DNA of 64,000 nt from Lachnospiraceae bacterium. Its GTDB lineage: Bacteria; Bacillota; Clostridia; Lachnospirales; Lachnospiraceae. Under the pieces are notes generated by a model, which worked only from the letters and a program-made list of their open reading frames with translations, had not been told where the DNA came from and searched no databases. Below are positions 29,164 through 50,638 of this stretch, piece by piece. The stretch is taken from the NCBI GenBank assembly GCA_015057555.1, contig SVEC01000005.1, positions 62,001-126,000 of the forward strand, in the 5' to 3' direction. Position 1 is the stretch's first letter; every line of letters starts with the position of its first letter. Made by a program: the position numbers and the translations under genes.

Positions 29164-31485
29164 TTACAAATGCTCCTTGCACCAGTCTGTGACGTATTTG
29201 TATTCAGTTTCAGAAATCATATCCTGGGAGAAGCCTGCTTTTTCAAGAATAGCAAGAACCTTCTCTCGGGATTTTTCTATATCCTCCTGCTCTGTTACAA
29301 TATCCTTAGTCAAGTATTGCAATTGTTCTCTATAATTTAGTTTTTCTCTAAGCTCCTTATCTCGCTTTCTGAGCTTTTTAATAATAGATTGATATTTGAA
29401 CACAAGCCTATCATTAATGTCCGCTTTAATAAATAGAAGCAAATTCTTTCCGTATACAAATAATTTTATACCCAAAAGACCCAAAATTGCTATGAGTATA
29501 ATTGCTCCCACACCATACACTGCATTTTTAACCAACTTATTTACTACTTTATTTACCCCCATAGCATTCTCAACAGCATCATCACCAGTATCTCCGGAAT
29601 CATCCATCATATCTGCAAACATATCCCAGAAATCCTCCTGATCATCTTCCTCAAGAGTTGCATAAGGAGTAACCTCCACAGGATGCCAGCCATACTGCAT
29701 ATTAAATACTTCTACCCAGGCATGGGCATCCGCATCTGTAACCTCAACAGATACTAGCGCAGTCTCCCCCAGCTCAGTATATCCAGAATAATAATTTTCA
29801 AATTCCGCTCCCTCAATAGGGGTTCCATTATATATCTGGTCAATATCAATGGCATAGCCCTCCACATATCTGGCAGGGATACCCATTCTTCTATATATCA
29901 AAACTGCAGCGGATGCAAAGTAAGAGCAATATCCCTTTTTCTTCTCCACAAGGAAATCATTTACAAAATCCTTCCTATACGGAGTTTTACCAGGTTTAAT
30001 GGTATAAGGATAGTTCTCCTGATAAAAATCAATAAGAGACTGGACTATATCCTCATCAGTAATAGGGTCTCCTAATTGGTCAATTATCATATCCACCGCT
30101 TCAATATTTGCCTCTGGCACATAAAGATCTGCCTCAGTATAAGCATTACCTTCATAAAACTCACCCTTTATAAAATACGTATTGTCTGCCAATCTAGGAT
30201 AGTAGGTAATATCTAAGAACCTCTTATTAGTATCTGCGGAATAGAAATAGTATGGTCTATAAACCACATCACTTTCCACATTATCAATCTTCATTATAGC
30301 CATTGAGGCGTATGGATAACCATCCTCGTATGCATACTTAAGGGACTCTGCCTCAGGACAGGAAAAAGAATCTACTGTATCTTTAACTTCTCCCATTCTT
30401 GTCCAATTATTTGCATAGGGATTATATTTTACACCTGTAAAGCCCTTAAGATAAATTCTCTCTGTGTTATAAGGGGTGAACTGAACCACAAGGTCAGTTT
30501 CATAGTCAAGCCTAATGGTGGATACCTGCCCCAGCCTACCACTTTCAAGTCCGCCCACATCCTCAGACATCTTGAAAAAGCCTGACAAACCATCCATTAA
30601 AATGGTACTGACTGCAGCCATAGTAAGTTCTTTATATTTATTGCCCTTGTATCCTACATTGAAGGTATCCTTTGGTTTAAACGCATTAACACTAGCCACA
30701 ACTGCAATCACAAAAGCAAGGGCAATTATGCCTGCATTAATCATAGCCTTAATATCATATACGTAGGCTATTTCCTTTTTCTTCTTACCTTTTTCCTTAA
30801 ACTTAACATCATCCCTCTTTATAGAGACCTGAGGACTGTAGTGTCTGCCAGACTTAAATACATAAGCCATAGCCATACCACCTAAAACCATAATAGTGTA
30901 CATTGCGTCCGGCTCTGCCACCAGATAAAGAGGTATCATATTTAGACCCATAACAGCAAATATAGCTGTAACGTATTGCATTCTTCTAGATATATATACA
31001 TTTAAAAATATATCTAAGACAATTCCTATAAAAAGCACTGCAAAGGTTACTGTCACATATCGATTCTCTATCTGCTCAACATAGAGCCTCTGGATGTCAA
31101 TATTAAAGAATTGGGCCGCACTATCGGTAGTTATATTTACAATAGCATAGAAACCACTGTTTATGTAGGTTCTGAACTTGTACACCAAAACCATAAACAA
31201 AAACAGTACCACAAGGTATCCGGCGTTTTCAGTTAATAATCGATAGTAAAGCATAGCAGAAAATATAGCCATAACAAAAATCACCACATGACACAGCACC
31301 TGATTATATTCTATGTATAAGGCAGACAAATAAAAGCCTATACTTCCCATAGCAAGAAGATAAACTATAAAGCCCTTAATAAGAAGGGTCAAAAGTCTAT
31401 TTTCCTTGGTTTCATATATGCTCTTGCTAAGCTTGATGCCCTCGCATAGACTTAGGTCTTTAATTGTATCCTTATTCTTAGCCAC
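29164..31485 (-). CDS. Membrane transglutaminase-like protein
   Basis: A 773-residue multi-pass protein. About six hydrophobic helices lie in residues 30-215 and another at ~250-268, then an exterior region with a transglutaminase core: GYCSYFASAAVLIYRRMGIP (Cys near 520), then DADAHAWVEVF (His near 587) and WHPVEVTP, where a Glu stands for the third residue as in many bacterial relatives. One more helix follows at about 655-675 and a helical cytoplasmic tail. The start is GTG overlapping the DUF58 stop. With MoxR and DUF58 it forms the common three-gene module often linked to cell-surface processing; the substrate is unknown. Confidence 0.88.
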   Translation of the reverse strand: MAKNKDTIKDLSLCEGIKLSKSIYETKENRLLTLLIKGFIVYLLAMGSIGFYLSALYIEYNQVLCHVVIFVMAIFSAMLYYRLLTENAGYLVVLFLFMVLVYKFRTYINSGFYAIVNITTDSAAQFFNIDIQRLYVEQIENRYVTVTFAVLFIGIVLDIFLNVYISRRMQYVTAIFAVMGLNMIPLYLVAEPDAMYTIMVLGGMAMAYVFKSGRHYSPQVSIKRDDVKFKEKGKKKKEIAYVYDIKAMINAGIIALAFVIAVVASVNAFKPKDTFNVGYKGNKYKELTMAAVSTILMDGLSGFFKMSEDVGGLESGRLGQVSTIRLDYETDLVVQFTPYNTERIYLKGFTGVKYNPYANNWTRMGEVKDTVDSFSCPEAESLKYAYEDGYPYASMAIMKIDNVESDVVYRPYYFYSADTNKRFLDITYYPRLADNTYFIKGEFYEGNAYTEADLYVPEANIEAVDMIIDQLGDPITDEDIVQSLIDFYQENYPYTIKPGKTPYRKDFVNDFLVEKKKGYCSYFASAAVLIYRRMGIPARYVEGYAIDIDQIYNGTPIEGAEFENYYSGYTELGETALVSVEVTDADAHAWVEVFNMQYGWHPVEVTPYATLEEDDQEDFWDMFADMMDDSGDTGDDAVENAMGVNKVVNKLVKNAVYGVGAIILIAILGLLGIKLFVYGKNLLLFIKADINDRLVFKYQSIIKKLRKRDKELREKLNYREQLQYLTKDIVTEQEDIEKSREKVLAILEKAGFSQDMISETEYKYVTDWCKEHL

Positions 31486-32528
31486 TAACCGTTCTCCCTT
31501 ACTATTACCATAGCTGAGCCACCCGAGGCACTTACATGAAGATATGACTTCATCTCCGGATGAACTAGTGCCATATGGCTTGAGGCCTCATCCATATTCT
31601 TATAACACTCTTCATAAAACATCTTTGCGAAGGCAGCATCTAAGGCCTCTACATAATCTATTCTTACATCCTCGTATTCAAAGCGATTTTTGCTCCAGTA
31701 CATAAGTCTCACATTTAGCTTGTCCTTAACCAAGGTATGAATTAGGGAGTAGGTAGTTACCAATATAGTGTTCAGCTCATAATGACTTGCATTACAAAGC
31801 TCCGGAACAACCACCAGCTGCTTATCTGACATGCTAACCCTATCCTTAACCATAAGAATATCCCTTTTGGCAGACAGCTTCCAATGGATGCTCATAAGCT
31901 TGTCCCCTGGTATATACTCTCTTATTTCCTGAACATCAGAAAAATCATTACCCTTCTTAGAGCTTTCCTCGCTTTCCAGCATACCGGACTCAAAATAAGT
32001 CTTGTCACTTATCTCCTGCTTAATAAGCTCTGGCAAAACAATAAGCTCACCCTTAGAATCCATATTTTTCTTAAGAAAGAAAAATCCCATCAAATCCTTA
32101 ATCTTAACCCTTTTCACAGTAAGAGTTAATCTACCAGGAAGGTCAGCAACTAGTGGCACCTTAAGCTCATAGCCTTTTTTACTGTACACTGGCACACTAA
32201 AGGTTAGGCTTCCGCTGGTTCCGAAAAACTCATTGCCCATCTCCACCAATAGCTTCACATCTAGAGAAGTCCACCAGGTAGGGTTATTAAGCTTTATGGT
32301 AAAAAAGCTTTCCTGATTCTGCACTCCATATTCCCCCTTAAGACAGTCACTGCTTACCTGGGCAGTGATTTTGCTTCTCAGATGAAGAGCTGTCAAAGCC
32401 GAAAAAACCGGTGCCAAAACCATTATCACCAACACTATAAAGTGAAAGTGACTGTGCAAAAACCAATATCCAATTATATTTATGGCAAGCAAGATGGCAT
32501 ATCCCACTGCTCTAAATATATTTTCCAT
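31485..32528 (-). CDS. DUF58 family protein
   Basis: A 347-residue DUF58 protein. Two membrane helices at the N-terminus (about 7-27, 28-48) are followed by an Ig-like strand region (VPLVADLPGRLTLTVKRVKI) and the diagnostic DUF58 stretch IREYIPGDKLMSIHWKLSAKRDIL (about 208-231), which belongs to a vWA-like fold. DUF58 genes almost always follow MoxR ATPases, as here (26-base gap). It probably is a client or scaffold for the MoxR ATPase. The stop overlaps the transglutaminase start by one base. Confidence 0.9.
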   Translation of the reverse strand: MENIFRAVGYAILLAINIIGYWFLHSHFHFIVLVIMVLAPVFSALTALHLRSKITAQVSSDCLKGEYGVQNQESFFTIKLNNPTWWTSLDVKLLVEMGNEFFGTSGSLTFSVPVYSKKGYELKVPLVADLPGRLTLTVKRVKIKDLMGFFFLKKNMDSKGELIVLPELIKQEISDKTYFESGMLESEESSKKGNDFSDVQEIREYIPGDKLMSIHWKLSAKRDILMVKDRVSMSDKQLVVVPELCNASHYELNTILVTTYSLIHTLVKDKLNVRLMYWSKNRFEYEDVRIDYVEALDAAFAKMFYEECYKNMDEASSHMALVHPEMKSYLHVSASGGSAMVIVRENG

Positions 32529-32554
32529 AATTCTCCTAATTATCTATTCTAATT

Positions 32555-33481
32555 TTAGCTTCTAGGTGCCTGAACCTGAACCAAAAGCTGATTCATAGCT
32601 GTACTTATATTTATTCCCTGAGCCTTTGCTCTAGCACTAAGCTTAACTCTGTGTCCCAAGGTATCCTTTATAACCTTCTGCACATCCTCTGCGGTAACAA
32701 AGCTTCTTCCGTCAATAATAGCCATAGCCTTAGCCATTCTAAGCATAGCTATAGTTCCTCTAGGACTGGCTCCTGCAGAGAAAATCTCCAGCTCTCTAGT
32801 TTTTTCCACCAAGGTAACTATATAGTCATATATTTCAGGCTTTACAAAAATATTATTAGTCTTCTCCCTAAGAATTCTTAGGTCCTCCACAGTAAGGATT
32901 CCCTCCACACTATCTATAGGTCTTAAGGCATTTCCCTGAAGAATCTTAACAGCGTCCTCATGGGATGGATAACCCATAGATAGACATACCATAAATCTAT
33001 CCAACTGAGACTCCGGAAGCATCTGAGTACCTGATGAGCCGTATGGATTCTCAGTAGCTATTACTATAAATGGATCTGGAAGCTTTCTGGTTACTCCGTC
33101 CACAGTGGCAGTGTTCTCCTCCATAACCTCAAGGAGAGCTGACTGTGTCTTCGGAGAGGTTCTATTAATCTCATCTGCCAAGAATAGGTTACAGAACACT
33201 GCACCCTCCTTGTACTCAAACTCCTTTGTAGCCGAGTTGTACATTGAAAATCCCAATATATCACTAGGAAGTACATCTGGTGTAAACTGTACTCTCTTGT
33301 AATTAAGGGACATGGATTTTGCAAATGTAGTGGCCAGAGTAGTCTTACCTACTCCAGGAATATCCTCCATAAGAATGTGTCCACCAGCTATCATAGCTGC
33401 CAGCACCTTTTCCACCACATGCTCCTTACCCTTTACTACCTTATTGACTTCCTTTTTTACCGCATCTAATTTTTCCTTCAT
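32555..33481 (-). CDS. MoxR-family AAA+ ATPase
   Basis: A 308-residue AAA+ protein of the MoxR group. Walker A is in EDIPGVGKTTLATTFA and Walker B in LFLADEINRTSPKTQ; the sensor motif ATENPYGSSGTQMLPESQLDRF and the C-terminal SPRGTIAMLRMAKA complete the family pattern. These proteins act as chaperone-like ATPases for DUF58/vWA and membrane partners. ATG 33479-33481 with GGGGG is chosen over the upstream GTG. It follows the 122-residue helical protein by one base. Confidence 0.93.
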   Translation of the reverse strand: MKEKLDAVKKEVNKVVKGKEHVVEKVLAAMIAGGHILMEDIPGVGKTTLATTFAKSMSLNYKRVQFTPDVLPSDILGFSMYNSATKEFEYKEGAVFCNLFLADEINRTSPKTQSALLEVMEENTATVDGVTRKLPDPFIVIATENPYGSSGTQMLPESQLDRFMVCLSMGYPSHEDAVKILQGNALRPIDSVEGILTVEDLRILREKTNNIFVKPEIYDYIVTLVEKTRELEIFSAGASPRGTIAMLRMAKAMAIIDGRSFVTAEDVQKVIKDTLGHRVKLSARAKAQGINISTAMNQLLVQVQAPRS

Positions 33482-33482
33482 C

Positions 33483-33851
33483 TTATACCCCCTGTGTTGT
33501 ATCGTCTTCACTTGAATCTATCATATTACAATACTTCATCTCATCTATTTGCTCATCGATTGTCCTATATTGTTTTTGCATATATCGATAGACTTCTTCA
33601 TTGCTTTCCATTATGTCATTGGCTCTAAAATTAATCTCTTCATATATAGAAGATATAAATTCATAGCCTTCCTGATTTCTCTCGGAAACAATAATGTTTT
33701 GCAACAAATTTAATAAACGTATTTGTCTATCTTCTCCTTCTTCCATAAACAGCTTGCATTGTCTAGATAAATCGTCATACTCTTCTCTTATGATTTCCAT
33801 ATGATGTATCTTTCCAGCATAATCTATATAATCTAAATTATCGTGATTCAT
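33483..33851 (-). CDS. Helical protein, candidate type VII cargo accessory
   Basis: Not recognised by motif. 122 residues, almost wholly helical and acidic (YDDLSRQCKLFMEEGEDRQ, FISSIYEEINFRANDIMESN), without signal peptide. Size and helical make-up are like the small WXG100-like partners (Lap2/DUF3958 or DUF5082 types) of LXG cargo, but no defining motif can be read. It starts right at the stop of the lipoprotein gene (GATTAAATG) and ends one base before moxR, so it belongs to the same transcript. Confidence 0.7.
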   Translation of the reverse strand: MNHDNLDYIDYAGKIHHMEIIREEYDDLSRQCKLFMEEGEDRQIRLLNLLQNIIVSERNQEGYEFISSIYEEINFRANDIMESNEEVYRYMQKQYRTIDEQIDEMKYCNMIDSSEDDTTQGV

Positions 33852-34544
33852 TTAATCATCCCCTTCAGCCAATTCTTTTGCCTCTTCCATCTTTTGTTGC
33901 CATTCTTCGTTAGTGATTTCGTAACTAATACCAGCACCAAATTCATATTCCAACATTACAACATCACTGTCTTCATAATACAAAGAATGTGTTACTTTCC
34001 ATTGTTTACTTGGTGTTCCTAACACAGTTTGTGTCATAGCAGAATATCCTTCCATTCTAAATGCCAGCATAGCATACTCCGTCATAGTACACTCTCCTGT
34101 GATAATATAACAAATATGCGTAAATTCATCATTTATTGTCACAACAATCCCAGTATCCATAGCACCATTTATTTGACTTTCCAGAAAATTTAAATATGCA
34201 TTGTATTGTTCTTCATTACATAACAAAACAATAGTTCCCATGTCATTTAAATATACATCTTCAAAATACACACCTTGCTCTTGGAGATTATATAAAAATT
34301 CCTCCATCCTATCTTCTTTGTTTGCACCATTTATACCCGATAATGCAATTTCAGGTAATTCAATTTCCACACTCTTTTGTTTTTCAAAACTATGTATTCT
34401 AGGTATAGATACTTTTTTACTTTCTTTAGTTGATTTTTCCATACCATTTTGCTTTATTTTTGAATTTGAGTTGCATCCTGCAAAAACTATTGTTACAAGT
34501 GCAAAACACACTAATAAAATCACTACATTTTTTCTTGTTTTCAT
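33852..34544 (-). CDS. Lipoprotein in the LXG-like cluster
   Basis: A 230-residue lipoprotein: signal MKTRKNVVILLVCFALV with lipobox VFAGCN (Cys23). The exterior domain is acidic with a mixed pattern and no recognised fold. GGAGG lies nine bases before the ATG. Immunity lipoproteins often sit beside LXG toxins, and this one directly follows the LXG-like gene, so it could be the cognate immunity factor; that is inference only. Confidence 0.8.
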   Translation of the reverse strand: MKTRKNVVILLVCFALVTIVFAGCNSNSKIKQNGMEKSTKESKKVSIPRIHSFEKQKSVEIELPEIALSGINGANKEDRMEEFLYNLQEQGVYFEDVYLNDMGTIVLLCNEEQYNAYLNFLESQINGAMDTGIVVTINDEFTHICYIITGECTMTEYAMLAFRMEGYSAMTQTVLGTPSKQWKVTHSLYYEDSDVVMLEYEFGAGISYEITNEEWQQKMEEAKELAEGDD

Positions 34545-34556
34545 AATCCCTCCATA

Positions 34557-35990
34557 TTAGTATGCTGGTGCAAGAATCCCACCCGGCAATCCAGCTGGAA
34601 TTCCAATAATCTGTGTTGCTAATTCCCAATCACTAACGCTTACGATTGGCAGTGCATTAGCACTCAATAAAGAAACCGAAGAACCATCCGGTGTCCATCC
34701 TCCAGAATTAGGCTCATATTTCACTCCACAAGCCGTGGTTACAGTGGCTTTTTCTGCATAATAAGCATGGGTATCATTTTTTACTTCTCCTACAGTAGTT
34801 GTCACTCCTGTTTCCAAGTAATAAGTATTATTCGAAAGATTCACCCCCGCCTTTAAGTATACACTTGTATTTTGATCTAATTTTTTTGAATATTTTACGT
34901 TACCACTTTCATCTGTTCCAGAAATGCTACAATCTCCCAAACTCAAGGAACTGCTACTTAAATAATTATTATTTTTCTCAGTAAGTGAATTTGATATAGG
35001 AAAATCCGAGTCATTTTTTAGTGTAACTGTATTTTCATAATACACGGTAAAACCTAAACCCAAAGGAATTTCCTCATATCCACGTTTAAAAGACATTGAT
35101 GGTAATACAGCTTTTGCTACTTCATTTACTTTGTCTAAATATTCTAGCCTATCCTTTTCCGGCATGTCCTTCATCTTTGTTGGTGGAATATAATCTTCTC
35201 CTAGTTCTTCTCTAATTAAATCTCCTGCATTTAACTTGTCTATCGTAGACTCCAAATTTTCAAATGCTGAACAATCAACATTGTGATAATAATAATTTCC
35301 ATTGCGTGTCACGCCTATATTTTCTAGTTGCTGGATAGCTTTTGCTAATGCGTCATTTAAAACATCAGCATAATAGTATAATCCATACAAATCCCTTAAC
35401 AAAATTTCAACGTAACTGATTTTTATGGAATAATACGACATAGCTCGGCTTAACACCGCCAATTCATGGGCATATGAATCAATATTGCATTGATATAATT
35501 CATAGGTGTTTTCATATCCCTCTGGAACCTTCTGCGGACTTGTATCGGTCATTCCCACCTCATAATCCTTACCATATGATGTTTTGGGCTCGTACGCCTT
35601 AAATATTAACGATTTTAAAAACTGCACCGCCATTGTATGTAGATTATTAATTTCATTATATTGTTCACATAAACTATTATACATTTCAACCCAGTAATCT
35701 TGGTCTATATCATTATCACTAGGAAATAAACTATGTAATCTTTCAATATATTTTCCATTTGCCTCAGCTTTTCTGTCACAAATATCAATTATCCCCTTCG
35801 CCACGGGTAATTGTGCTGTTTGTATATAGGTTTTGTGAGAAGAAATAGCTTCCGAATTATTTTCCTCATCATTTAAGTATTCTTCAAACCTTTTTATTAA
35901 TATTTCTACATTTTGCTTCGTATTAGTCAACTGAGTAGTCATCATAACTAACTCTTGAACTGTATCCTGCTTATTTATTAAAACTCCCAT
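34557..35990 (-). CDS. LXG-like type VII secretion cargo protein
   Basis: A 477-residue protein without signal peptide. The first ~240 residues are helical and follow the LXG pattern: FEEYLNDEENNSEAISSHKTY, then PVAKGIIDICDRKAEANGKY and IDQDYWVEMYNSLCEQYNEI, as in LXG domains, although the L-x-G tripeptide itself is not seen. Residues ~310-477 form a separate beta-rich, Ser/Thr/Asn-rich module that could be the effector or a binding domain; it matches no toxin I know. The gene follows a DUF3130-like gene by one base, the normal companion of LXG proteins. The family call is moderate. Confidence 0.6.
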   Translation of the reverse strand: MGVLINKQDTVQELVMMTTQLTNTKQNVEILIKRFEEYLNDEENNSEAISSHKTYIQTAQLPVAKGIIDICDRKAEANGKYIERLHSLFPSDNDIDQDYWVEMYNSLCEQYNEINNLHTMAVQFLKSLIFKAYEPKTSYGKDYEVGMTDTSPQKVPEGYENTYELYQCNIDSYAHELAVLSRAMSYYSIKISYVEILLRDLYGLYYYADVLNDALAKAIQQLENIGVTRNGNYYYHNVDCSAFENLESTIDKLNAGDLIREELGEDYIPPTKMKDMPEKDRLEYLDKVNEVAKAVLPSMSFKRGYEEIPLGLGFTVYYENTVTLKNDSDFPISNSLTEKNNNYLSSSSLSLGDCSISGTDESGNVKYSKKLDQNTSVYLKAGVNLSNNTYYLETGVTTTVGEVKNDTHAYYAEKATVTTACGVKYEPNSGGWTPDGSSVSLLSANALPIVSVSDWELATQIIGIPAGLPGGILAPAY

Positions 35991-35991
35991 A

Positions 35992-36267
35992 TCATTCTCC
36001 TATCGCTTTATTTATATCCCCAGCCGCTTCTTCATCAACACCTTGTAATGCCCACGAAATATCTTTAATTGTTTCTGCATCCCTCTTAATTATTCCGTCA
36101 TACTGTTTCATTTCTCCTTGTAACGCAGAATATAATCCTTGAGCTTCTGTGTGAGCTGGCAAACCTAAAACTGTTGACTTTTTTACATTCTGCAGTAATA
36201 CATCATTATCTATTAAAATATTATCCGATAATGCAACAGCAGTATCTACACTAATTTTAATTCCCAT
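35992..36267 (-). CDS. DUF3130/TIGR04197-like small type VII cargo (Lap1-like)
   Basis: A 91-residue helical protein beginning MGIKISVDTAVALSDNIL and continuing LGLPAHTEAQGLYSALQGEM, a good match by eye to the TIGR04197/DUF3130 family of type VII secretion substrates (Lap1 type), which form a complex with LXG proteins to bring them to the secretion ATPase. The C-terminus has WALQGVDEEAAGDINKAI. GGAGG precedes the ATG. It directly precedes the LXG-like gene (one-base gap). The core secretion genes (EsxA, EssB, EssC) are not in the window. Confidence 0.72.
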   Translation of the reverse strand: MGIKISVDTAVALSDNILIDNDVLLQNVKKSTVLGLPAHTEAQGLYSALQGEMKQYDGIIKRDAETIKDISWALQGVDEEAAGDINKAIGE

Positions 36268-36268
36268 T

Positions 36269-36709
36269 TCATTCTTCCTCCACTCTATTACTTATAGAAT
36301 CCAAAACATAATCCATATCTTTTTTCCACTTTTCAAATTGCCCATCAACATTACACATAATCACAGCATAAAAATGTCCAATCGCCTGATATGAAACTAA
36401 CACATAATGCTTATCAAACCCTTCATTGAAATAAACCTTACTCTGCCGTACACCATCAACAATTCTATATGTACACTCTGGTTCAGATACATCACAACAT
36501 CTTCTTTTTATATCGTTATACATTATCATATTTTGCTCTGAAACATTTACATTTGATGCCTCGCACTCCATTATAATAATTGTGTTATCTTTTTTATCCC
36601 TAAAGCATTCTGCGCTATTCATTCCTGAATCTTTTAATCTTACATAATCATCAGGAATTTTTATGGAAAAGCTATCATTAAATAGCGTATATTTTCTTAC
36701 TATACCCAC
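36269..36709 (-). CDS. Hypothetical protein, 146 residues, first gene of the LXG-like run
   Basis: Not recognised with certainty. The pattern FNDSFSIKIPDDYVRL, then VDGQFEKWKKDMDYVLDSI resembles the Mog1/PsbP/DcrB fold, a small alpha-beta domain often found next to LXG and other polymorphic-toxin genes. No signal peptide is seen. It starts at GTG 36707-36709 with GGAGG upstream. Its stop is one base before the DUF3130-like gene. A chaperone or immunity function is possible but not shown. Confidence 0.65.
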   Translation of the reverse strand: MGIVRKYTLFNDSFSIKIPDDYVRLKDSGMNSAECFRDKKDNTIIIMECEASNVNVSEQNMIMYNDIKRRCCDVSEPECTYRIVDGVRQSKVYFNEGFDKHYVLVSYQAIGHFYAVIMCNVDGQFEKWKKDMDYVLDSISNRVEEE

Positions 36710-36754
36710 TTCTTTCCTCCTATTTCACATTCTTTTATCTCCCATAATCCACTA

Positions 36755-36781
36755 ACGCCAGAAAGCAGTCCCTTCTGGCGT
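36755..36781 (-). terminator. Hairpin between malic enzyme and LXG-like run
   Basis: ACGCCAGAA (36755-36763) pairs perfectly with TTCTGGCGT (36773-36781), but the minus strand lacks a T-run after it. Termination may be partial, and read-through from malic enzyme into the LXG-like run cannot be excluded. Confidence 0.4.
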
Positions 36782-36792
36782 AGTTTACATAA

Positions 36793-37962
36793 CTATTTTG
36801 TAATTCCCAGCCTAACTGCCTCATCTGACACTGCCTTAGCCACTGCTTGTGCTACCCGCTCATCAAAGGCTCCTGGTATAATGTATTCCTCATTAAGCTC
36901 ATCCTCCGATACGATGGCTGCAATGGCCTTAGCGGCTGCAACCTTCATGGATTCAGTTATAGCTTTAGCCCTAACATCTAAAGCTCCTCTAAATATTCCA
37001 GGGAATACAAGCACATTATTAATCTGGTTAGGATAGTCAGAACGGCCTGTAGCCATTACTCTTACATTACCCTTTTTAGCCTCCTCCGGCATAATCTCCG
37101 GAGTTGGATTAGCCATAGCAAATACTATAGAATCTGTAGCCATAGTTGCTACCATTTCAGCAGTAAGCACTCCCGGAGCAGACACTCCTATAAATACATC
37201 CTTGCCCTTTATTATATCTGCTAACGAGCCTCGCTCCTTGTACGAATTTGTCATCTGTGCCATCTCTTCCTGTGCAGGATTCATCCATTCCTCGCCTGGA
37301 CAAAGAGCACCATTCTTGTCAACTAAAACTACATTCCCTACGCCCAGCTCCATAAGTAGCTTGCAGATGGATATACCAGCTGAACCGGCACCATTTATAA
37401 CCACATTGATCTCTTCAAATTTCTTATCAACAAGCTTAACTGCATTGATAAGACCGGCAGAAACCACAATAGCTGTACCATGCTGGTCATCGTGGAATAC
37501 TGGAATATCTAACTCCTCCTTAAGACGACGCTCTATCTCAAAGCATCTTGGAGCAGAGATATCCTCTAGATTTACACCACCAAACACTGGAGCGATTCTT
37601 TTGACAGTCTCAACTATCTCATCCACATCCTTGGTATCTAGGCATATCGGAAACGCATCAACTCCAGCAAACTCCTTGAAAAGAATTGCTTTCCCTTCCA
37701 TAACTGGAATTGCGGCTTCAGGCCCTATATCTCCTAAGCCAAGCACCGCAGTACCATCAGAAACCACTGCAACAGTATTTGATTTACAGGTGTATTTGTA
37801 CACATCCTGCTTATTGTCTCTTATTTTTCTGCATGGTTCAGCAACACCCGGGGTGTAGGCTGTGCTTAAATCCTCTCTAGTTTTTACCTGCACTCGCGAG
37901 GTCACCTGAAGCTTTCCAGGTCCTGCCTCGTGCATTTTCAAGCTAAGCTCATTGTAGTCCAT
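36793..37962 (-). CDS. NADP-type malic enzyme (oxaloacetate-decarboxylating)
   Basis: A 389-residue malic enzyme of the short bacterial type (MaeB without the phosphotransacetylase domain). It converts malate to pyruvate and CO2. Family segments are TAYTPGVAEPCRKI, LGLGDIGPEAAIPVMEGKA, FHDDQHGTAIV, the NAD(P)-binding INGAGSAGISI and RSDYPNQINNVLVFPGIFRG. GAGG precedes the ATG. It follows a small coiled-coil gene by 20 bases in the same direction. Confidence 0.95.
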   Translation of the reverse strand: MDYNELSLKMHEAGPGKLQVTSRVQVKTREDLSTAYTPGVAEPCRKIRDNKQDVYKYTCKSNTVAVVSDGTAVLGLGDIGPEAAIPVMEGKAILFKEFAGVDAFPICLDTKDVDEIVETVKRIAPVFGGVNLEDISAPRCFEIERRLKEELDIPVFHDDQHGTAIVVSAGLINAVKLVDKKFEEINVVINGAGSAGISICKLLMELGVGNVVLVDKNGALCPGEEWMNPAQEEMAQMTNSYKERGSLADIIKGKDVFIGVSAPGVLTAEMVATMATDSIVFAMANPTPEIMPEEAKKGNVRVMATGRSDYPNQINNVLVFPGIFRGALDVRAKAITESMKVAAAKAIAAIVSEDELNEEYIIPGAFDERVAQAVAKAVSDEAVRLGITK

Positions 37963-40893: not shown

Positions 40894-43800
40894 CTATATA
40901 AAGTCAAAGCTAACCTGCTCGAATTCTAAATCCTTATATTCAAGCTCTTCCTGGTCAACCTTGCTGGTGTAATCTGTTACTACTGTTAGCTGCTTACCCT
41001 TAGACATCTGCTGTCCTAGGATATAATTCACATCAAATCTGCCTGTTATGGCAGGTGTTGCACCTCTGGCTGGTACTATAAGCTGCACATTATTTGCCTT
41101 AAGAAGGGCAAATATTGGTTCCCAAATATACACATCCTTTGCGGCGCCAAATGGGTTATCTATAAATATAGTTTTAGTTCTTATGTCCTCATTACCAGTG
41201 TGATACATACCGGAAATGTAGTTGATTATACTTACTAAGAACTGTATATAGATACCCTGAGACTGTCCTGTACTACCTACAGCCTCCTCGTATTTTAAGT
41301 ATCTACTCTGCTCCTTAATACGCTCACGCTTGTAAAGACTAAGCTTGATACCATTCATGTCTGTTACTATTACGCCAAACAGTTTCTTAAGTGCCAGACT
41401 ATTTCTAATAAATTTAACCTGTTCCTTCTCGTTACTATAATCATCTGCTTGGGCTACCACATTATCAATATACTGAGACATTCTCTGCTTTAAGAATTCT
41501 TCCTTAAAGTATGGAATGTTAAGTCCCACCATCTGTATAGCCTCACCATCAGCCACTATACGAGACAGCTTAGGAAGCTTATCTAGCTCAGTCTTAACAT
41601 CAAGACATCTCTGTAAGCACTGCTCCTCAAAGTTAGCCTTGATGGTCTCCATATCAACTAAGCTCTTCTCGATTCTATCTCGCTCTAATACAATATACTC
41701 CGAGATAGACTTTAAATTCTCCATAAGAAGGCTAGCTGCTTCATAATCTACTGGGATGATTACATCCTCTCTGATGGTATTAGCTAATTCAAATGCACTC
41801 ATCTGCTCTAGAGCTACCGAGGTATTACCCTTAAAACGAACCAGCTCATTTTTCGCCTTCTCTAAGGCCTTATTGCTTCTATCAAATTTAAGTAAGCTAT
41901 CCTCGAAGATTTCTCTAAGCTTATCCTTTTCCTCCATAATTGGAGTTGCTCCCTCTAGGCTAATATCATTGGTGGTTACTATTCTCTTTACATCCTTGTA
42001 AAGGTCTACCATGTAGCCCTGCTGACGAAGGTAATTTCTATACTCATCCTCATAGTCCTTAGCATCCTTGGCAAGACGCTTAAGAAGCTCCTCACCATCC
42101 GCTAGGGTTGCAGTAATCTCAGAAAGACTTGCCTGCTCCTCCACATACTGGCCAAAGGCATCCTCAATATTCTTAATAGCGTACTGGATACTACCCTCTA
42201 AACGGTTTATTTCAGCACGCTTTTTATCCTGCTTACTCCTAGCCTCTGTTATCTGATTTTCCACATCTCTTATGGAATGCTTACAGCTTTCAAGCACCTT
42301 GTCATCTGATACAAATAGCAAATTATTATTCTCAAATTCCTTAAGCAACTGCAGGCTTACTCCACGCTTCTCGATATTCTTAAGGGCCCTATCCATAGAA
42401 ACCTTTATAGTATCCATAAGGAGCTTCTTATCCTCTATAGCCTTGGCATCATTACTTCCCATACTAACCATAGCTGTAAATCTAGCCTTAAGCTCATCAT
42501 CTCCTATAGTTAAAATCTGATACTCCTTGTCAATGTTATAATAAGCCTTATAGTTATCATCCCATTCCTTGGTTATCTCATCATAACGAGCATTAAGTGA
42601 TTTAAGCTTAGCCTCTGTTTCCACCAAGGAAATATTCTCATCATCAGTAGTATTTATAAGAGTATTAAGACTCTGTTCTAATCTTTCTATATCAGTTCTT
42701 GCCTTGTCAGCTATTTCCTCCTTAGAGGATATAATATCTGTAAGCTTTTCCACTGCAAAAAGCTTTGTTATATCTTGATTAGCCTTTTCTAGTTCCTCCT
42801 GCTTGGAAGCAAGCTGTTCCTTGGTCTTATCTATAGTCAGCCTATAGCCCTTAATCTCTGCTTCAAGCTTATCCTTAGTCTCCGCAAGCTGCTTTCCTAA
42901 TTCCTCTGCTGCCTTTAATCGCTCCTTGGACTTAAGCAATTCACTTTCAGACATTCTAAGAACAAACTCCTGGTCCTGTCTGTAGGCAGAAAGCATCTCA
43001 TCCTTTATATCAAGCTGCAGTTCATAATCCTTAACTAAAGCTCTCTGGGCATCTATAAGCTTATCCTTTGTACCCTCATCTGTAAGGAAATTCACATCTG
43101 CATGTATCGAGAATGCATTGTCTCCAAAATGTACCGCCTTAGAGTCTATAGCCTCCATATCATAGATGCTTACCATCTCCTCTTCAGTGTCCAGCTTATA
43201 AATATTAGGGTCTCCTGCAATAGCCTCATAATCCTTTACAAGAACTCCATAAGGAAGCTCTGGATTTGTAGCAAGAAGCTCCTTCTGCTTATCTACTGGC
43301 AATGCAGACAGATAATCCATACCAAACATAGCAGTTATTCCATGGCGGGTTTCTATGTAATCCATAGCCTTCTTAGCTGCCTTGGAAATATTTATAATTC
43401 TACCTTCCTTAAGTCTATTTATGCTCTTCATAGACTTCTCTATGTTCTTTCTAACTGCTGCAATATCAAGAACTGCCTGAGTAATTCTATCTGAAATAAT
43501 CTTAAGAAGCTCTTCCTCCTTAGATGCACCGTAAACCGTCTTAATATTATCAAGCTTGGCTGTAGCCTCCTCATAGGCTGACTGATGAGCCTCTAAGTCC
43601 GATATAAGCTTATCATTTTCCACAGACTTATCCTTAAGCTGATTCAACTCTAGTGTTGCCGCCTGGATTTTTCCTGCGTTTTCATCTATGGTAGCCTTGG
43701 CCTCTTCCATAGAATTCTCATAGTTCTTAACTACCTCTCTTGCCTCAGAAAGCTGCTCACCCACGTCTGTGAATCTTATGCTATTCATAGACATTCTAAT

Positions 43801-45303
43801 GTTAGAAAGCTCCTCACTAAGATTTACTATTTCCTCATCTGCTGCCGCCTTAACATTCTTTGCCACCGCAAGAGATACTCTGGCCTCAGATAATAGCTTT
43901 TCATTCATAGCTTCCTTTTCTTTAAGTTCTGAAAGCTCCTTTGTTAAGCTTTCTATCTGGCTTCTATAATCCATAAGAAGCTTATCCATACGCATCTTAA
44001 TATTGTATGCATAGGTATATAATTTTTCCTCATCAAAAGAGGACTCAGTCATCATGGTCTTAATAACTGCGTCGTGCTGATAGTACTTAGCTCTATCCTC
44101 TAGATACTCCATATATTCATTAACACTTTCTTTAAGATTAAGGTCTTCCTTAAGAGTCTTAGCTCTCTCATTAAGCTCATCTACCTGAGACATAAGTAGC
44201 TTTTCTTCACCCATAAGCTCCTCTAGCTGTCTCTTATCCTTAGAAACCTTAAGACACTCTATGCGCTCTCTCTGCTTATTCTTAAGCTCACGGGCCTCAT
44301 CCTTCTTAAGCTCTAGCTCCTTAAGGTGCTTTTCATCGTTACGAGCAAACTCCTCACCGGTTACGCATATATTTGCAAGGAGCTCTGACAGGTTGCTCTG
44401 CTCCTTGTAAAGTCCAATAAAGGACTCCACCTTATCAGCCAAAACCCCTATAAGTTCTGCCTGTCTGTCATAGGCCTTAATGTCCTTTTTCTTCTTAGCC
44501 AAAACTGTAAGCTGCTCCTTAATATCCATAAGCATCTTAGCCATAGAATCAGTGCCGTCCTCGTCTCGGCTAGTCTTAACCAGGAATGCCTTTTCTATAA
44601 TCTCCTCAATAAGAAGATCCTCCACCACCTTACGGGTGGTCTTGTAATTATTCTCGAAATAGGTTCTAACATGACCCTCAGTCTTATTGATTCCTCTGAT
44701 AATCTCCCATTGGCTCTCATGAATACCATACTCACTGATAAAGCGCTGGTACTCACCCTTTCGCTCAAAGATTCTAACCTTAAGACTCATATCTCTGTGC
44801 TCTAGCTCCTTAAGGAAATTCTTAAGTCCACTGAAGGTTACCCTCTCTCCCTCCTTAACCAAAGGAAGATTAACTATGTCATGTTTATTGTATTCCTTGT
44901 AGAAAATGCAGTAATTAAAATACTCTATAGATGCTACATCCTTGTTTGCACGGTTCTCTGTCTCGCTGTCACTTTCTTTAGCCTTTCTGGCACAAAAGCC
45001 TGTGGTCATATATCTGTAACCATCTTCTCTGTCTGTGTCATCCAGCTTCCACTCCACCAGTGAGTGAATGGTTGTGTTACCATTTCCGGTTCTAAACAAC
45101 TTCTCTATAGGCTGCTTATCATCCAATGTACAATTAGGTATCATATTCTGGAGCAAAAGTAGCATAAGCACACTTTTTCCACCACCATTTGCCAAGTCAT
45201 AGAGGGTGTTTTTACCATAAAGTCTCATAGTAAAATCATCATAGAACTGGGTGCCAAAATTGTACTTTACATTGTTAACTCTGATTCTGTTAATACTAGG
45301 CAT
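40894..45303 (-). CDS. JetC/MukB-like SMC-type ATPase
   Basis: A 1469-residue SMC-like protein. Walker A is at residues 38-45 (LANGGGKSVLM), then a head lobe, a very long coiled coil (about 270-560 and 700-1190) broken by a hinge-like region (KKAMDYIETRHGITAMFG), and the C-terminal head with a signature-like GSTGQSQGIY and Walker B TIFIDNPFGAAKD. The residue after the Walker B Asp is Asn rather than the usual Glu. ATG 45301-45303 with GGAGG is preferred to GTG 45312. It overlaps the JetB stop by eight bases. With the two genes before it, it forms a Wadjet/MukBEF-type complex. Confidence 0.88.
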   Translation of the reverse strand: MPSINRIRVNNVKYNFGTQFYDDFTMRLYGKNTLYDLANGGGKSVLMLLLLQNMIPNCTLDDKQPIEKLFRTGNGNTTIHSLVEWKLDDTDREDGYRYMTTGFCARKAKESDSETENRANKDVASIEYFNYCIFYKEYNKHDIVNLPLVKEGERVTFSGLKNFLKELEHRDMSLKVRIFERKGEYQRFISEYGIHESQWEIIRGINKTEGHVRTYFENNYKTTRKVVEDLLIEEIIEKAFLVKTSRDEDGTDSMAKMLMDIKEQLTVLAKKKKDIKAYDRQAELIGVLADKVESFIGLYKEQSNLSELLANICVTGEEFARNDEKHLKELELKKDEARELKNKQRERIECLKVSKDKRQLEELMGEEKLLMSQVDELNERAKTLKEDLNLKESVNEYMEYLEDRAKYYQHDAVIKTMMTESSFDEEKLYTYAYNIKMRMDKLLMDYRSQIESLTKELSELKEKEAMNEKLLSEARVSLAVAKNVKAAADEEIVNLSEELSNIRMSMNSIRFTDVGEQLSEAREVVKNYENSMEEAKATIDENAGKIQAATLELNQLKDKSVENDKLISDLEAHQSAYEEATAKLDNIKTVYGASKEEELLKIISDRITQAVLDIAAVRKNIEKSMKSINRLKEGRIINISKAAKKAMDYIETRHGITAMFGMDYLSALPVDKQKELLATNPELPYGVLVKDYEAIAGDPNIYKLDTEEEMVSIYDMEAIDSKAVHFGDNAFSIHADVNFLTDEGTKDKLIDAQRALVKDYELQLDIKDEMLSAYRQDQEFVLRMSESELLKSKERLKAAEELGKQLAETKDKLEAEIKGYRLTIDKTKEQLASKQEELEKANQDITKLFAVEKLTDIISSKEEIADKARTDIERLEQSLNTLINTTDDENISLVETEAKLKSLNARYDEITKEWDDNYKAYYNIDKEYQILTIGDDELKARFTAMVSMGSNDAKAIEDKKLLMDTIKVSMDRALKNIEKRGVSLQLLKEFENNNLLFVSDDKVLESCKHSIRDVENQITEARSKQDKKRAEINRLEGSIQYAIKNIEDAFGQYVEEQASLSEITATLADGEELLKRLAKDAKDYEDEYRNYLRQQGYMVDLYKDVKRIVTTNDISLEGATPIMEEKDKLREIFEDSLLKFDRSNKALEKAKNELVRFKGNTSVALEQMSAFELANTIREDVIIPVDYEAASLLMENLKSISEYIVLERDRIEKSLVDMETIKANFEEQCLQRCLDVKTELDKLPKLSRIVADGEAIQMVGLNIPYFKEEFLKQRMSQYIDNVVAQADDYSNEKEQVKFIRNSLALKKLFGVIVTDMNGIKLSLYKRERIKEQSRYLKYEEAVGSTGQSQGIYIQFLVSIINYISGMYHTGNEDIRTKTIFIDNPFGAAKDVYIWEPIFALLKANNVQLIVPARGATPAITGRFDVNYILGQQMSKGKQLTVVTDYTSKVDQEELEYKDLEFEQVSFDFI

Positions 45304-46009
45304 CCACTTCACCTCCTAAGGCCTTATAAATTCTACCCTTGTACTCCTCGAAGTAGTTCTCCACCAAAGCCTTAAATCTATCTGTAGGATAATATCTATC
45401 CTCAACCTCCACAAAAAGCTTCTGAGCTATAAGGAAGTTAAAGGTAAGCTTCACATATCCTGTTCTTGAGGCTCTTGAAGCACGATTCTTATCCTTATCA
45501 TCTGAGGTAACAGCTGGAAGTTCATCCCACAAAAGAGCTATGGTCTTAAAGCTTTCCGCCTCTAAATCCTCCATAGAATACACTGACAAATCCTTGGTGA
45601 TAGCCATAAGATATGAGCTTACGCTCTCCATAATTTCCTCCAACTTCACATATTCCTTAACCTGATAGGAGGCTGAATCCTGATAAAAGCTAAGCAGTGC
45701 ATTGTACATAATAAAATACACCATATAAAGTTCCTTATTAAGACGTAGTCCTAGCTGGCGTTTCATATCATCATTGTTATATCCAAATACTCTGTTACCC
45801 TCTCCGGCAGTAACATATATGGACTCATTATACTCGTAAATATTAAGGTTCAATTTCTTAACCAAGCGATTAGTAATATCATAAACCGCCGAATTAGAAT
45901 AGTACTCCTCATACATATCTCTGGTATCCTGATTAGAGCGGGATACTTCCTGTCCGGTTATCAGTGCTGAATATATATCAAGTGCTTTGTCTAAGCTTCT
46001 TTCTTCCAT
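45296..46009 (-). CDS. JetB/MukE-like subunit
   Basis: A 237-residue protein with predominantly helical pattern and a winged-helix-like C-terminus (ASRTGYVKLTFNFLIAQKLFVEV, then YYPTDRFKALVENYFEEY). This is how MukE, DUF4194 or DUF6063-type proteins look; they bind the kleisin and DNA between the SMC heads. The ATG at 46007-46009, one base after the JetA stop, has GGAGG upstream; a TTG further upstream is rejected. Position between JetA-like and JetC-like genes supports the call. Confidence 0.75.
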   Translation of the reverse strand: MEERSLDKALDIYSALITGQEVSRSNQDTRDMYEEYYSNSAVYDITNRLVKKLNLNIYEYNESIYVTAGEGNRVFGYNNDDMKRQLGLRLNKELYMVYFIMYNALLSFYQDSASYQVKEYVKLEEIMESVSSYLMAITKDLSVYSMEDLEAESFKTIALLWDELPAVTSDDKDKNRASRASRTGYVKLTFNFLIAQKLFVEVEDRYYPTDRFKALVENYFEEYKGRIYKALGGEVDA

Positions 46010-46010
46010 C

Positions 46011-47606
46011 TTATCCCTGCCTCCTTTCAAAATACATATCTGTAACTACAAATCTATCTGATCTGGCATCTCCTGGATTATCACCAAGAGCACCAAGCTC
46101 AATTTCTTCAGTGCCGAATGTAAGAGTAAATTCCATACTCTCAAACTCAGCCTTCTCATCCTCTGTCATATGAGAGACAACCATCTCCTCCAGCATAGTG
46201 TCCTGCTTAACAAGCATCTGCTTCATGCTATATTCGCGCTTCCCAGCCAAGTGAACTAAGAAAGCATAGTAATCTCTGTTCTCATATATATCCTTGCTAA
46301 ACTTTATCTCAAGGATACCATTTAACTCCTTAATACTAACCTTGTTCCACTTTTTAAGCTGGTCCAAAAGCTGAACAAACAGCATAGCAAAGTTGTGACT
46401 TATCTTCTCATCAAGTATCTCGTCCTCATACTTAAAGTCAAGGTCAAGACTGGCCTTCTCCACCTTCTCACCCTGCTGCTTGTCCTCGGATTTAAGAGTA
46501 AGCATATTGTCAATTGACTTTATAGAAAATGTCTTCTCTAAGCGTGGTGCAAAAAGTGGCATAACCACATGAGCCATAAGGGCAGGATTATCCTGCTTCA
46601 TAATATTCACTAAGCTCTGTCTAAAGTCGAACACTGGCCTTAGCTTTCTAAGCTTAGCCTGACCGATAATCTTATCAGCCATCTGTGAAAGCTCCACTGT
46701 TTCAGATATGAGCTGGCTGTGATTATAAATAGTCTTCTTAAGCTCATTCTCTAGGCTACTGATTTCCTCTAGAGCCTTGGAGCGTAGTAGCTTGGCGCTA
46801 CCTTCTCCTGTAGGGTCTACAGACTGGTTGTTTTCAAACTCAGCTTTCTTAATAGCCTTATCCACCAGTGCCTTATTCTTAGCAAAGAGCTTTTGCTCCT
46901 CAGAGAACCATTTTGCAATGGTATCCATATACTCTGTGTAGGCCTTGTTGCCCTCAAATATATCCATTCCAAGAAGCTTAAGCACATTCTCCTTTTCAGC
47001 CTTAAGCTTAATCACCTGGGCATTTATTCTCTTAACTACATCGATACCACCCTTGAAATTATTAGAGGTTATCATCTTCTCAAGGAGAAGCTGAGATACA
47101 TTAATCTTGCTCTCATCCTTAACCTCCTTAGTATCTAAGTAAAACTCGATACCCTCAGCAGTAATGGTATAAAGCACCTGACCATTCTCGATACGAGAGT
47201 CTATAAGCTTAACTCTGGCAATCTGGCTGGACTTTGTATCCGGATTATAAAACCTAAACTCGAAGGCTCTACCATCATTCTTAAGCTTGTCAAATATATG
47301 TAGGATAAGCTGCTTTTCCTCTTCCTTAGGCTCGTCTAAATCAAAGTCTCGATGAAGCAACTCTGACATAAAGTTCTCATACTCCTCGTAGGTAATATCC
47401 TTTTCGTGGAAATTATTTTCATTAATCAAAAAACGCAAGGATGCCATAGTAATATAACCCATATCAAGAAAACCATATTTGCCTTCCTTATACTGGACAA
47501 ATGTGGTTTCACTTAACACAAAGAATGGGTAATACTTCTTCAAGTTCTGCATTCTCGCGCTATGCTCTGAAATTATGTCGTTAATCATTACGTGCTTTAG
47601 TGCCAT
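46011..47606 (-). CDS. JetA/MukF-like kleisin subunit
   Basis: A 531-residue protein: an N-terminal winged helix (YGFLDMGYITMASLRFLINENNFHE), a second wHTH-like region (KLIDSRIENGQVLYTITAEGIEFYLDTKEV), a helical middle (LKKTIYNHSQLISETVELSQMADKI) and a C-terminal winged helix. This is the usual plan of MukF/JetA-type kleisins, and the neck helix sits where it should to contact JetC. GAGG precedes the ATG. It is the first gene of the operon behind the promoter at 47683-47711. I read it as Wadjet type II-like (DUF5716-like), by architecture. Confidence 0.78.
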   Translation of the reverse strand: MALKHVMINDIISEHSARMQNLKKYYPFFVLSETTFVQYKEGKYGFLDMGYITMASLRFLINENNFHEKDITYEEYENFMSELLHRDFDLDEPKEEEKQLILHIFDKLKNDGRAFEFRFYNPDTKSSQIARVKLIDSRIENGQVLYTITAEGIEFYLDTKEVKDESKINVSQLLLEKMITSNNFKGGIDVVKRINAQVIKLKAEKENVLKLLGMDIFEGNKAYTEYMDTIAKWFSEEQKLFAKNKALVDKAIKKAEFENNQSVDPTGEGSAKLLRSKALEEISSLENELKKTIYNHSQLISETVELSQMADKIIGQAKLRKLRPVFDFRQSLVNIMKQDNPALMAHVVMPLFAPRLEKTFSIKSIDNMLTLKSEDKQQGEKVEKASLDLDFKYEDEILDEKISHNFAMLFVQLLDQLKKWNKVSIKELNGILEIKFSKDIYENRDYYAFLVHLAGKREYSMKQMLVKQDTMLEEMVVSHMTEDEKAEFESMEFTLTFGTEEIELGALGDNPGDARSDRFVVTDMYFERRQG

Positions 47607-47811: not shown

Positions 47812-48540
47812 CTAAATTTTTTTACCACAGGTTTTACATACCCCAGCCTCTGTCAAAGCTCCACAGCTTTCACATTTTGGAATAAAGGTATTTTTGTGAT
47901 TATACACAGCCTCTTTTAACTGATCATAGCCATCTATGCAATCAAATATTTTCAGATTGGCCTTTGCCCTCTTTCCATCAATGTGTGTTACAATCTGCAG
48001 GGTTAAACCATTTTTATTTTCCTTAATATTATAGATACCTTCAATCTCAGTAGCTATCGATGACAAATCACATCTATTTATCACAGAATCTACTGTATTA
48101 TACATCTTTTCTGCATCAAGTATGTATCTTCTTCTCTTCTCATCCTCTTTCATCATGCGAATTCCCTTTGCAAAATCACTGGTTCCGCTATTTATTAGCT
48201 TATAATCACTCATTCGAGCCAAATCAAGAAATGCATTGGAGAATATATTAATGGCATAAAATTTACCATCACCATACATTACATATACATTTCCTATCCA
48301 ATTAACTATTTCAGTTTCCTTCCAAACCCAAAACAGTGGAAGAAATAGAGCCAAAAGAAATATAGCAATCATGACATAGATAACAAAAAGATTTGCAAAA
48401 TCTATGTTTAACTTAGGCACAACTATAGTCAATGCCAATATTATTACCATCACAAGAATTATTCCCAATCCTGTTTTTCTTGCAACTGCAGGTACGTATT
48501 TAGGGTCGTATGACCATTTATTGTATTTTTTACTACTCAT
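47812..48540 (-). CDS. Membrane protein with C-terminal zinc ribbon (paralogue 1)
   Basis: A 242-residue protein with two membrane helices near the N-terminus (about 25-45 and 50-72), a cytoplasmic domain with many charged residues (RMMKEDEKRRRYILDAEKMY) and a C-terminal zinc ribbon (CESCGALTEAGVCKTCGKKI). The overall plan and several segments (VYNHKNTFIPKCESCG versus SVYTYASNFRMRCPSCG) match the protein at 50639-51481, so the two are paralogues. Function is unknown. Confidence 0.75.
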   Translation of the reverse strand: MSSKKYNKWSYDPKYVPAVARKTGLGIILVMVIILALTIVVPKLNIDFANLFVIYVMIAIFLLALFLPLFWVWKETEIVNWIGNVYVMYGDGKFYAINIFSNAFLDLARMSDYKLINSGTSDFAKGIRMMKEDEKRRRYILDAEKMYNTVDSVINRCDLSSIATEIEGIYNIKENKNGLTLQIVTHIDGKRAKANLKIFDCIDGYDQLKEAVYNHKNTFIPKCESCGALTEAGVCKTCGKKI

Positions 48541-48621
48541 ATTTTTCTCCTATCAGTATATTTATATAATATGTCGTTAAGCTTCATATGGTATATTAAC
48601 CCATTTGTAAAATAGTTTCAA

Positions 48622-50034: not shown

Positions 50035-50061
50035 AACAATCACCTTCTTATATACAAAAAC

Positions 50062-50568
50062 CTATGACTCTGGTGGAGAAATAATTTCAGCTATTTCTTC
50101 TAAAACAGGATTACCATATATGTATCCATCAAACTCATGTATCTTTTTATAGGTTTCATCGTAGGATATCATTTCCCAGCCTGTGCCATCACAGCCATCC
50201 ATATCATCCATACAAAGTTTAAATCCACCGTCTAATATTTTTTCAAATCTGTTTAAATCTTCCTCACTAAGCTTCCATATTACAACCTCGGTAGCCCCGC
50301 TCAAATTATAATACTTATAATATTCCACAGTTCCGTCACAGTGCACTGTCCAATTACTACTTTGCCAATAATCCGTAGAGCCGTCCATACATCCCCAGTT
50401 AGATTGAGATGCTGTAAATATTACTGACGTACGTTCTATACCAGTCCCTCCTTTACCTTGGGCTTTACTATTTTTTTCATTGCCATCTACGACCCAGAAA
50501 ACAATTCCACCAAGTAAGGTTATTATCATCAATATGGAAATAATTTTTATGATTAGTCTTTTTTTCAT
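50062..50568 (-). CDS. Membrane-anchored single-domain paralogue of the neighbour
   Basis: 168 residues: a basic N-terminus and hydrophobic anchor (IISILMIITLLGGIVFWVVDG), then one copy of the domain found twice in the downstream protein (SQSNWGCMDGSTDYWQSSNW, then HCDGTVEYYKYYNLSGATEVVIWKLSEEDL). The aromatic and Asp/Gly-rich segments suggest a ligand- or sugar-binding beta fold, but none is recognised. GAGGAAATGAT precedes the ATG. It lies 27 bases before its larger paralogue and is probably co-transcribed. Confidence 0.75.
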   Translation of the reverse strand: MKKRLIIKIISILMIITLLGGIVFWVVDGNEKNSKAQGKGGTGIERTSVIFTASQSNWGCMDGSTDYWQSSNWTVHCDGTVEYYKYYNLSGATEVVIWKLSEEDLNRFEKILDGGFKLCMDDMDGCDGTGWEMISYDETYKKIHEFDGYIYGNPVLEEIAEIISPPES

Positions 50569-50638
50569 ATCATTTCCTCCGGAAATTCTTCGCTTTATAA
50601 TGTATACTAATTTCTCTCAGATATTTATGGTTGCAAAA

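Follow-up and report, generated by a model that had tools for sequence, protein, structure and literature searches.

Gene content of the locus

The window analysed here, the whole stretch of 64,000 nucleotides from contig SVEC01000005.1 of a Lachnospiraceae bacterium, contains a run of eight minus-strand genes, from 36709 down to 29164, in which genes resembling the cargo of a type VII secretion system (T7SS) precede genes for a MoxR ATPase, a DUF58 protein and a transglutaminase. The window lies on contig C25 of an assembly (G000) with 27 contigs and 87% completeness. The first five genes (33483-36709) probably constitute an LXG-type T7SS cassette of effector, partner and immunity genes, inserted between the malic enzyme gene and moxR; among the genomes read, this insertion is confined to the present lineage. 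The features of the locus are the following (lengths in amino acids, aa; relatives-only profiles are described below).

36269..36709, minus strand: Mog1/PsbP-like protein, 146 aa, without a transmembrane stretch, first cassette gene (relatives-only profile, E 2.4e-6)
35992..36267, minus strand: Lap1/DUF3130-like partner of the WXG superfamily, 91 aa (TIGR04197 and relatives-only profile)
34557..35990, minus strand: LXG-type effector, 477 aa (PF04740, E 1.6e-4, below cut-off; relatives-only profile, E 5.8e-25)
33852..34544, minus strand: lipoprotein, candidate immunity protein, 230 aa (relatives-only profile of 10 sequences, E 2.4e-12)
33483..33851, minus strand: helical protein, 122 aa, candidate Lap2/YwqH-type partner (from position and length only)
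32555..33481, minus strand: MoxR AAA+ ATPase (AAA_3, E 2.3e-56; start kept in five relatives)
31485..32528, minus strand: DUF58 protein (PF01882, E 4.2e-5, 23.3 bits, cut-off 23.4)
29164..31485, minus strand: transglutaminase-like, membrane-anchored protein (Transglut_core, E 6.2e-21 at 476-604)
36793..37962, minus strand: malic enzyme, which in relatives usually adjoins moxR on its left side (tblastn synteny; named from reading the sequence)
33493..36755, no strand assigned: approximate footprint of the inserted cassette (comparison with empty sites, partly by eye)

All eight genes are open at the coordinates originally predicted, and the last three are, in order, the MoxR, DUF58 and transglutaminase genes that had been proposed, the DUF58 match lying 0.1 bit under its cut-off. 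On their domain matches, the identities of MoxR and of the transglutaminase, which has seven transmembrane-like stretches of 19 residues, are certain. The intergenic gaps are 1, 1, 12, 0, 1, 26 and -1 bases in gene order, taking ATG 33481 as the moxR start. This codon opens the sequence MKEKLDAV, and in a base-by-base comparison with five relatives the conservation of moxR begins there; since it sets in only at this point, the alternative start GTG 33511 is probably spurious. The original prediction of gaps of at most 26 bases thus stands, while its several overlaps are reduced by the moved moxR start to a single one, of 1 base, between the DUF58 and transglutaminase genes.

Family assignment of the cassette proteins

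Profiles from which the window proteins were excluded were built from 5 effectors, 2 Lap1-like proteins, 10 lipoproteins, 5 Mog1-like proteins and 3 or 5 helical proteins, and were searched against the 184 open reading frames (ORFs) of the window. With the effector, Lap1, lipoprotein and Mog1-like profiles the matching cassette gene ranked first of the 184, at the E-values listed above (5.4e-15 for the Lap1-like gene), the next-best ORF having an E-value of 0.11 or worse. A four-sequence Lap1 profile likewise retrieved its cassette gene at E 4.6e-11, with a runner-up at 7.7e-4. Four of the five cassette genes are therefore related to genes of T7SS loci, and these profiles, together with like gene sets in related T7SS loci, bear out the reading of the first five genes as type VII cargo. 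The 122-aa helical gene was hit at E 0.007 by an effector profile of two sequences, a match attributed to helical noise.

The LXG and DUF3130 assignments, first made by eye, hold as well, yet below the curated cut-offs. The effector matches the LXG family PF04740 with 22.1 bits (cut-off 26.5), the LxG motif as such not being located, and the 91-aa protein matches TIGR04197/SACOL2603, a family equated with DUF3130 in passages of PMC9600955, at E 0.0012 and 19.3 bits (cut-off 26). The latter protein is 40% identical to the product of an 87-aa gene adjoining EssC in the relative G457. At the position of the FxxxD export motif near the Lap1 C-terminus, inspection by eye found LQGVD in the window, LDAVD in G457 and FDEVD in the relative G175.

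The effector consists of a helical N-terminus (approximately residues 1-225), a beta-rich C-terminal domain (approximately 300-425) and a mildly hydrophobic end; its AlphaFold2 (AF2) model has long helices at 7-224 and low confidence, with a mean predicted local distance difference test (pLDDT) score of 53. In the C-terminal domain, four proteins scanned gave no Pfam match over cut-off, and residues 334-436 of the window effector gave one sub-threshold match, to DUF5901 (E 0.0041). The C-terminal end is the most hydrophobic 19-mer in 7 of the 8 effector proteins inspected, and its mean Kyte-Doolittle (KD) value exceeds 2 in three of them (the protein of G156 and both copies of G144). These 19-mers weakly suggest that the effectors act at a membrane.

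Among the remaining proteins, the 230-aa lipoprotein has an N-terminal hydrophobic stretch followed by a Cys residue, as seen by eye. The 146-aa Mog1-like protein, for which the Pfam PsbP match reaches just E 0.059 and the AF2 model is unusable (mean pLDDT 39), is probably a globular adaptor or chaperone, or else a cytoplasmic immunity protein. No family was found for the 122-aa helical protein in Pfam and NCBIfam scans or with the relatives-only profiles.

Insertion beside a conserved MoxR module

The DUF58 gene occurs in 36 of the 37 genomes of the genus, the window's own included, and thus in 35 of 36 relatives. Among these relatives 34 are readable at the locus, since G011 has no match and the contig of G006 ends inside the gene. 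According to tblastn synteny, malic enzyme directly precedes moxR in 33 of the 34, the matched segments being separated by -4 to 387 bases; a different gene takes its place in G002. Cassette genes precede moxR in none of the 34, for many of which approximately 0.5 kb upstream of moxR was read, a span taken up by malic enzyme.

The joints of the insertion were placed by comparison, base by base, with the empty sites of G012, G031, G008, G018 and G030. On the left, the joint comes after a hairpin (36756-36780) that follows malic enzyme. On the right, it coincides with the GGGGGT in the ribosome-binding site of moxR, and the 3' end of the 122-aa gene thus consists of the old moxR leader. The GC content at third codon positions (GC3) is 0.247 in the cassette and 0.362 in the window (standard deviation 0.047 over 46 genes), 2.4 standard deviations lower. 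On this comparison the locus is a clean insertion of an orphan LXG-type cassette, whose effector has a C-terminal domain without Pfam match over cut-off. Because the readable relatives keep the module without the cassette, the two halves of the run appear to be neighbours by insertion, and MoxR-DUF58-transglutaminase looks like a separate, conserved envelope module that now lies directly downstream of the cassette.

Secretion system of the same genome

The genome that carries the cassette also encodes a T7SS. In agreement with the earlier statement that EssC is missing from the window, a whole-genome search placed EssC over cut-off on contig C11 alone (G000:C11:161745-165578, 1154 bits, cut-off 778). 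A large neighbouring gene in the window, of 1472 aa, is JetC3. WXG100 had no match among the 19 window proteins scanned, a set of scans that did not include a search of the window for EsxA. Over the whole genus, EssC exceeds its cut-off in 14 of 37 genomes.

The C11 locus further contains two FHA genes, a ParA-like gene, a YukD gene (E 8.1e-7), an LXG gene (E 5.5e-13) and WXG100-like genes, one of them at E 0.0019, below cut-off. A near-identical duplicated pair of 98-aa genes is also present in this locus (G000:C11:148001-188000, read as L063 and L064), at L063 17751-18345 and L064 3322-3916.

Over 1509 aa, the EssC of this genome shares 63.8% identity with the EssC of G014, a genome with an effector of the family in its T7SS locus. 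Family effectors also occur in the loci of G144 and L091, where the aligned EssC portions are 60-70% identical to it; identity to the EssC proteins of G159 and G457 is approximately 33%. Since this EssC resembles that of G014, which has a family effector in its locus, the cassette effector could use the machine encoded on C11.

Effector relatives and their genomic context

The effector family has a narrow distribution in the genome sets searched (all hit counts include the window's own genome). The single effector protein as query matched 2 of 99 relatives and 5 of 397 genomes of the bacterial family, and the effector profile (A6) matched 5 of 397 family genomes and 2 of 37 genus genomes. Order-wide, the profile matched one of 392 genomes, namely the window's own, and the window effector alone had no match in collections of genome contigs and of viral contigs. 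G175 matched in the N-terminal part only and was left out of the effector-copy counts.

The genomic context was read for nine effector copies from outside the window, and for eight of them EssC lies in the same locus; for the ninth, in G156, it lies on another contig. G159, G457, G014, G144 and G156 all have EssC over cut-off. One copy in G159 and one in G457 stand between a YukD-like gene (named by eye in G159) and EssC, and a second G457 copy just after EssC has behind it genes for a membrane-anchored, a Mog1-like and a 122-aa helical protein (names by eye). The copies in G014 (L092, a member of the genus, filed as a Clostridium sp. metagenome-assembled genome, MAG), G144 (L090, a Lachnospiraceae MAG) and L091 (uncultured Eubacteriales) are accompanied by EssC, YukD, a ParA-like gene and two FHA genes, a set resembling that of the window genome. 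A Mog1-like gene and a tandem array of two or three genes for lipoproteins or membrane-anchored proteins also stand beside the effector there. In G156 an orphan set consists of helical, small partner, effector, Mog1-like and lipoprotein genes, with no EssC within the 20 kb read. This set, at 8230-11861 of L089, is besides that of the window another orphan cassette of like composition away from a T7SS locus, and it has two related lipoproteins. Passages of PMC10765036 and PMC8321402 already describe LXG genes apart from the T7SS locus.

Proposed function and alternative explanations

We infer export and toxicity from these relationships: the cassette likely encodes an antibacterial effector, exported through the T7SS found elsewhere in the genome, and a lipoprotein that confers immunity to it. 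The Lap1-like and 122-aa helical proteins would attach to the effector at its helical N-terminus and deliver it to EssC of the C11 system, with the Mog1-like protein as a possible cytoplasmic globular adaptor, chaperone or internal immunity protein. Once exported, the beta-rich C-terminal domain and the hydrophobic end would attack the envelope or membrane of competitors, and the lipoprotein, taken as an immunity protein by analogy with TilA for TslA, would shield the producer from outside. The lipoprotein genes that G144, L091 and G014 carry in tandem next to the effector resemble T7SS immunity arrays as described in parts of PMC10765036 and PMC10730906.

Several observations weigh against the cassette as read here. 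Both the LXG and the TIGR04197 scores are under the curated cut-offs. Of three relatives scanned for Pfam LXG, G159 matched below cut-off (E 0.0088) and neither G156 nor G014 matched, and the effector relatives of G014 and G144 have a shorter, different N-terminus. The helical-gene profiles were not significant against the 184 window ORFs (E 0.7 and 1.2), and the profile E-values in general lean on the choice of relatives, which were picked partly by position. The low-confidence structure model of the effector matched no solved fold. The end of the window effector is mildly hydrophobic (KD 1.27 over 19 residues), which leaves membrane action weakly based. The low GC3 is not specific to the cassette, other window genes reaching 0.26-0.29, no recombinase or mobile-element gene was seen by eye among the window ORFs, and flanking repeats around the insertion were short, chance-like ones only.

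An alternative is that all eight genes form one system, in which MoxR, DUF58 and the transglutaminase assemble, modify or process the exported LXG protein or remodel the wall for its passage; the original prediction had proposed, as one idea, that MoxR and the transglutaminase remodel the surface or process that protein. The single strand, the gaps of at most 26 bases and the moxR ribosome-binding site inside the end of the 122-aa gene speak for such a system, and because of this last feature the cassette transcript could well extend into moxR. We nevertheless consider it very improbable, as the eight-gene order, checked in the genus relatives, is not kept (0 of 34 join the halves) and none of the nine loci around effector relatives (L067, L076-L079, L089-L092) has a match to the window MoxR, DUF58 or transglutaminase at E 1e-4. 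Separation of the halves in other genomes had been named with the original prediction as an outcome that would refute it. The transglutaminase was accordingly rejected as a processing enzyme of the LXG protein, there being no conserved linkage. In the paper library searched, no work names MoxR, transglutaminase and LXG together; as listed, the five papers on MoxR, DUF58 and transglutaminase carry no LXG mention, and among the listed papers that combine at least two of MoxR, type VII secretion, DUF58 and LXG, one (PMC8191103) has MoxR, DUF58 and type VII secretion but no LXG. Cassette and module may have been co-transcribed since the insertion, and their co-expression may be accidental, since the cassette has pushed away the sequence that used to precede moxR. 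That the inserted cassette has since become co-regulated with moxR, the expression of one following that of the other in an accidental and perhaps useful coupling, is rather unlikely. The cassette did enter between the malic enzyme hairpin, which in G018 and G030 is followed by T-rich, terminator-like sequence (by eye), and the ribosome-binding site of moxR, separating this gene from its native upstream region; against this, sigma-70-like sites are at chance level (31 found, 31.2 expected), as were the promoter and terminator scans of the region in general.

The cargo could instead be an adhesin-like or signalling T7SS substrate with a surface lipoprotein partner. The beta-rich C-terminal domain, with no known toxin family among its Pfam matches and no catalytic motif seen by eye, would suit such a protein, but the tandem lipoproteins of the relatives suit immunity arrays better and the C-terminal end is the most hydrophobic part of nearly all effectors inspected, with KD values above 2 in three, so that we regard this reading as unlikely. 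An assembly artefact that misjoined the cassette to this contig is extremely improbable: the number of contigs and the incomplete assembly would allow it, but both flanks are in conserved order and both joints lie within one short intergenic region, and a misjoin would hardly be expected to rejoin that locus 3.3 kb further on.

With the antibacterial cassette retained as the preferred reading, the tempting link between type VII cargo and the MoxR-DUF58-transglutaminase module is corrected as unsupported, and a clean insertion of an effector cassette is described in its place, the empty site being visible in 33 of 34 readable genus relatives. The effector family, with its C-terminal domain lacking a Pfam match over cut-off in four proteins, and the lipoprotein partner family in tandem copies are both testable in laboratory strains. 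A much bolder view, which we think rather improbable, would make this an undescribed T7SS toxin family of the bacterial family, with a beta-rich C-terminus, a hydrophobic end, diversifying tandem lipoproteins and a PsbP/Mog1-like adaptor, whose cassette has here captured the expression of an envelope quality-control module and so tied attack to wall maintenance.

Other genes of the neighbourhood

Upstream of malic enzyme, on the minus strand at 40894-47606, lie JetA3, JetB3 and JetC3 (PADLOC E-values 1.9e-211, 1.7e-103 and 0), a Wadjet type III or MksBEF-like structural maintenance of chromosomes (SMC) set. All 20 genus regions that were read have JetC3 at this place. The JetD domain PF09983 was not found in the window's own genome, and 4 of 37 genus genomes have it; the Jet set without nuclease subunit looks like core genome. 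Further upstream (47812-51481, minus strand), hypothetical membrane and zinc-ribbon genes (47812, 48622, 50062, 50639) have a GC3 of 0.263-0.304, near that of the cassette.

Comparison with known systems

The closest known systems are the LXG effectors TelC and TelD of Streptococcus intermedius, whose targeting partners Lap1 (DUF3130/TIGR04197) and Lap2 (DUF3958) are modelled, in passages of PMC9600955, as binding the helical end and guiding the effector to EssC. As in that source, a small helical partner gene stands before an effector with a helical N-terminus, and a candidate immunity gene follows. In contrast to TelC and TelD, the window proteins score under the family cut-offs, LQGVD occupies the FxxxD position (by eye), the second helical gene ends the set and an extra Mog1-like gene leads it. 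TslA-TilA of Staphylococcus aureus, as described in parts of PMC10730906, likewise pairs a T7SS toxin with an immunity lipoprotein, TilA, which occurs in additional copies, and has two small helical partner proteins; compared by this description only, TslA differs in having its lipase domain in front and its helical domain behind. The membrane-acting LXG toxins TelE and EsxX (passages of PMC10434224 and PMC12744356) and TspA, which the passages on EsxX name, share with the family the helical N-terminus and, in the G144 and G156 members, a strongly hydrophobic C-terminus, whereas in the window effector a beta-rich domain precedes the end, which is short and mildly hydrophobic, and DUF5085 is not among the Pfam matches of the cassette proteins.

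For the Mog1-like protein, PsbP/MOG1-like proteins beside toxins of type VI secretion systems (T6SS) have been proposed as adaptors (in part of PMC3482391), and EspG-like chaperones are represented by EsaE/YfjC (in part of PMC10765036). Both are small globular proteins encoded beside a secreted toxin, as the window protein probably is. By this analogy, the window Mog1-like protein may correspond to the T6SS adaptors or to the EsaE/YfjC chaperones.

An example of a MoxR-DUF58-transglutaminase module is reportedly the PFNA cluster of Bifidobacterium. All three family names occur in PMC8430577, a paper on this cluster. The module of the window differs in being kept across one genus, adjoining malic enzyme.

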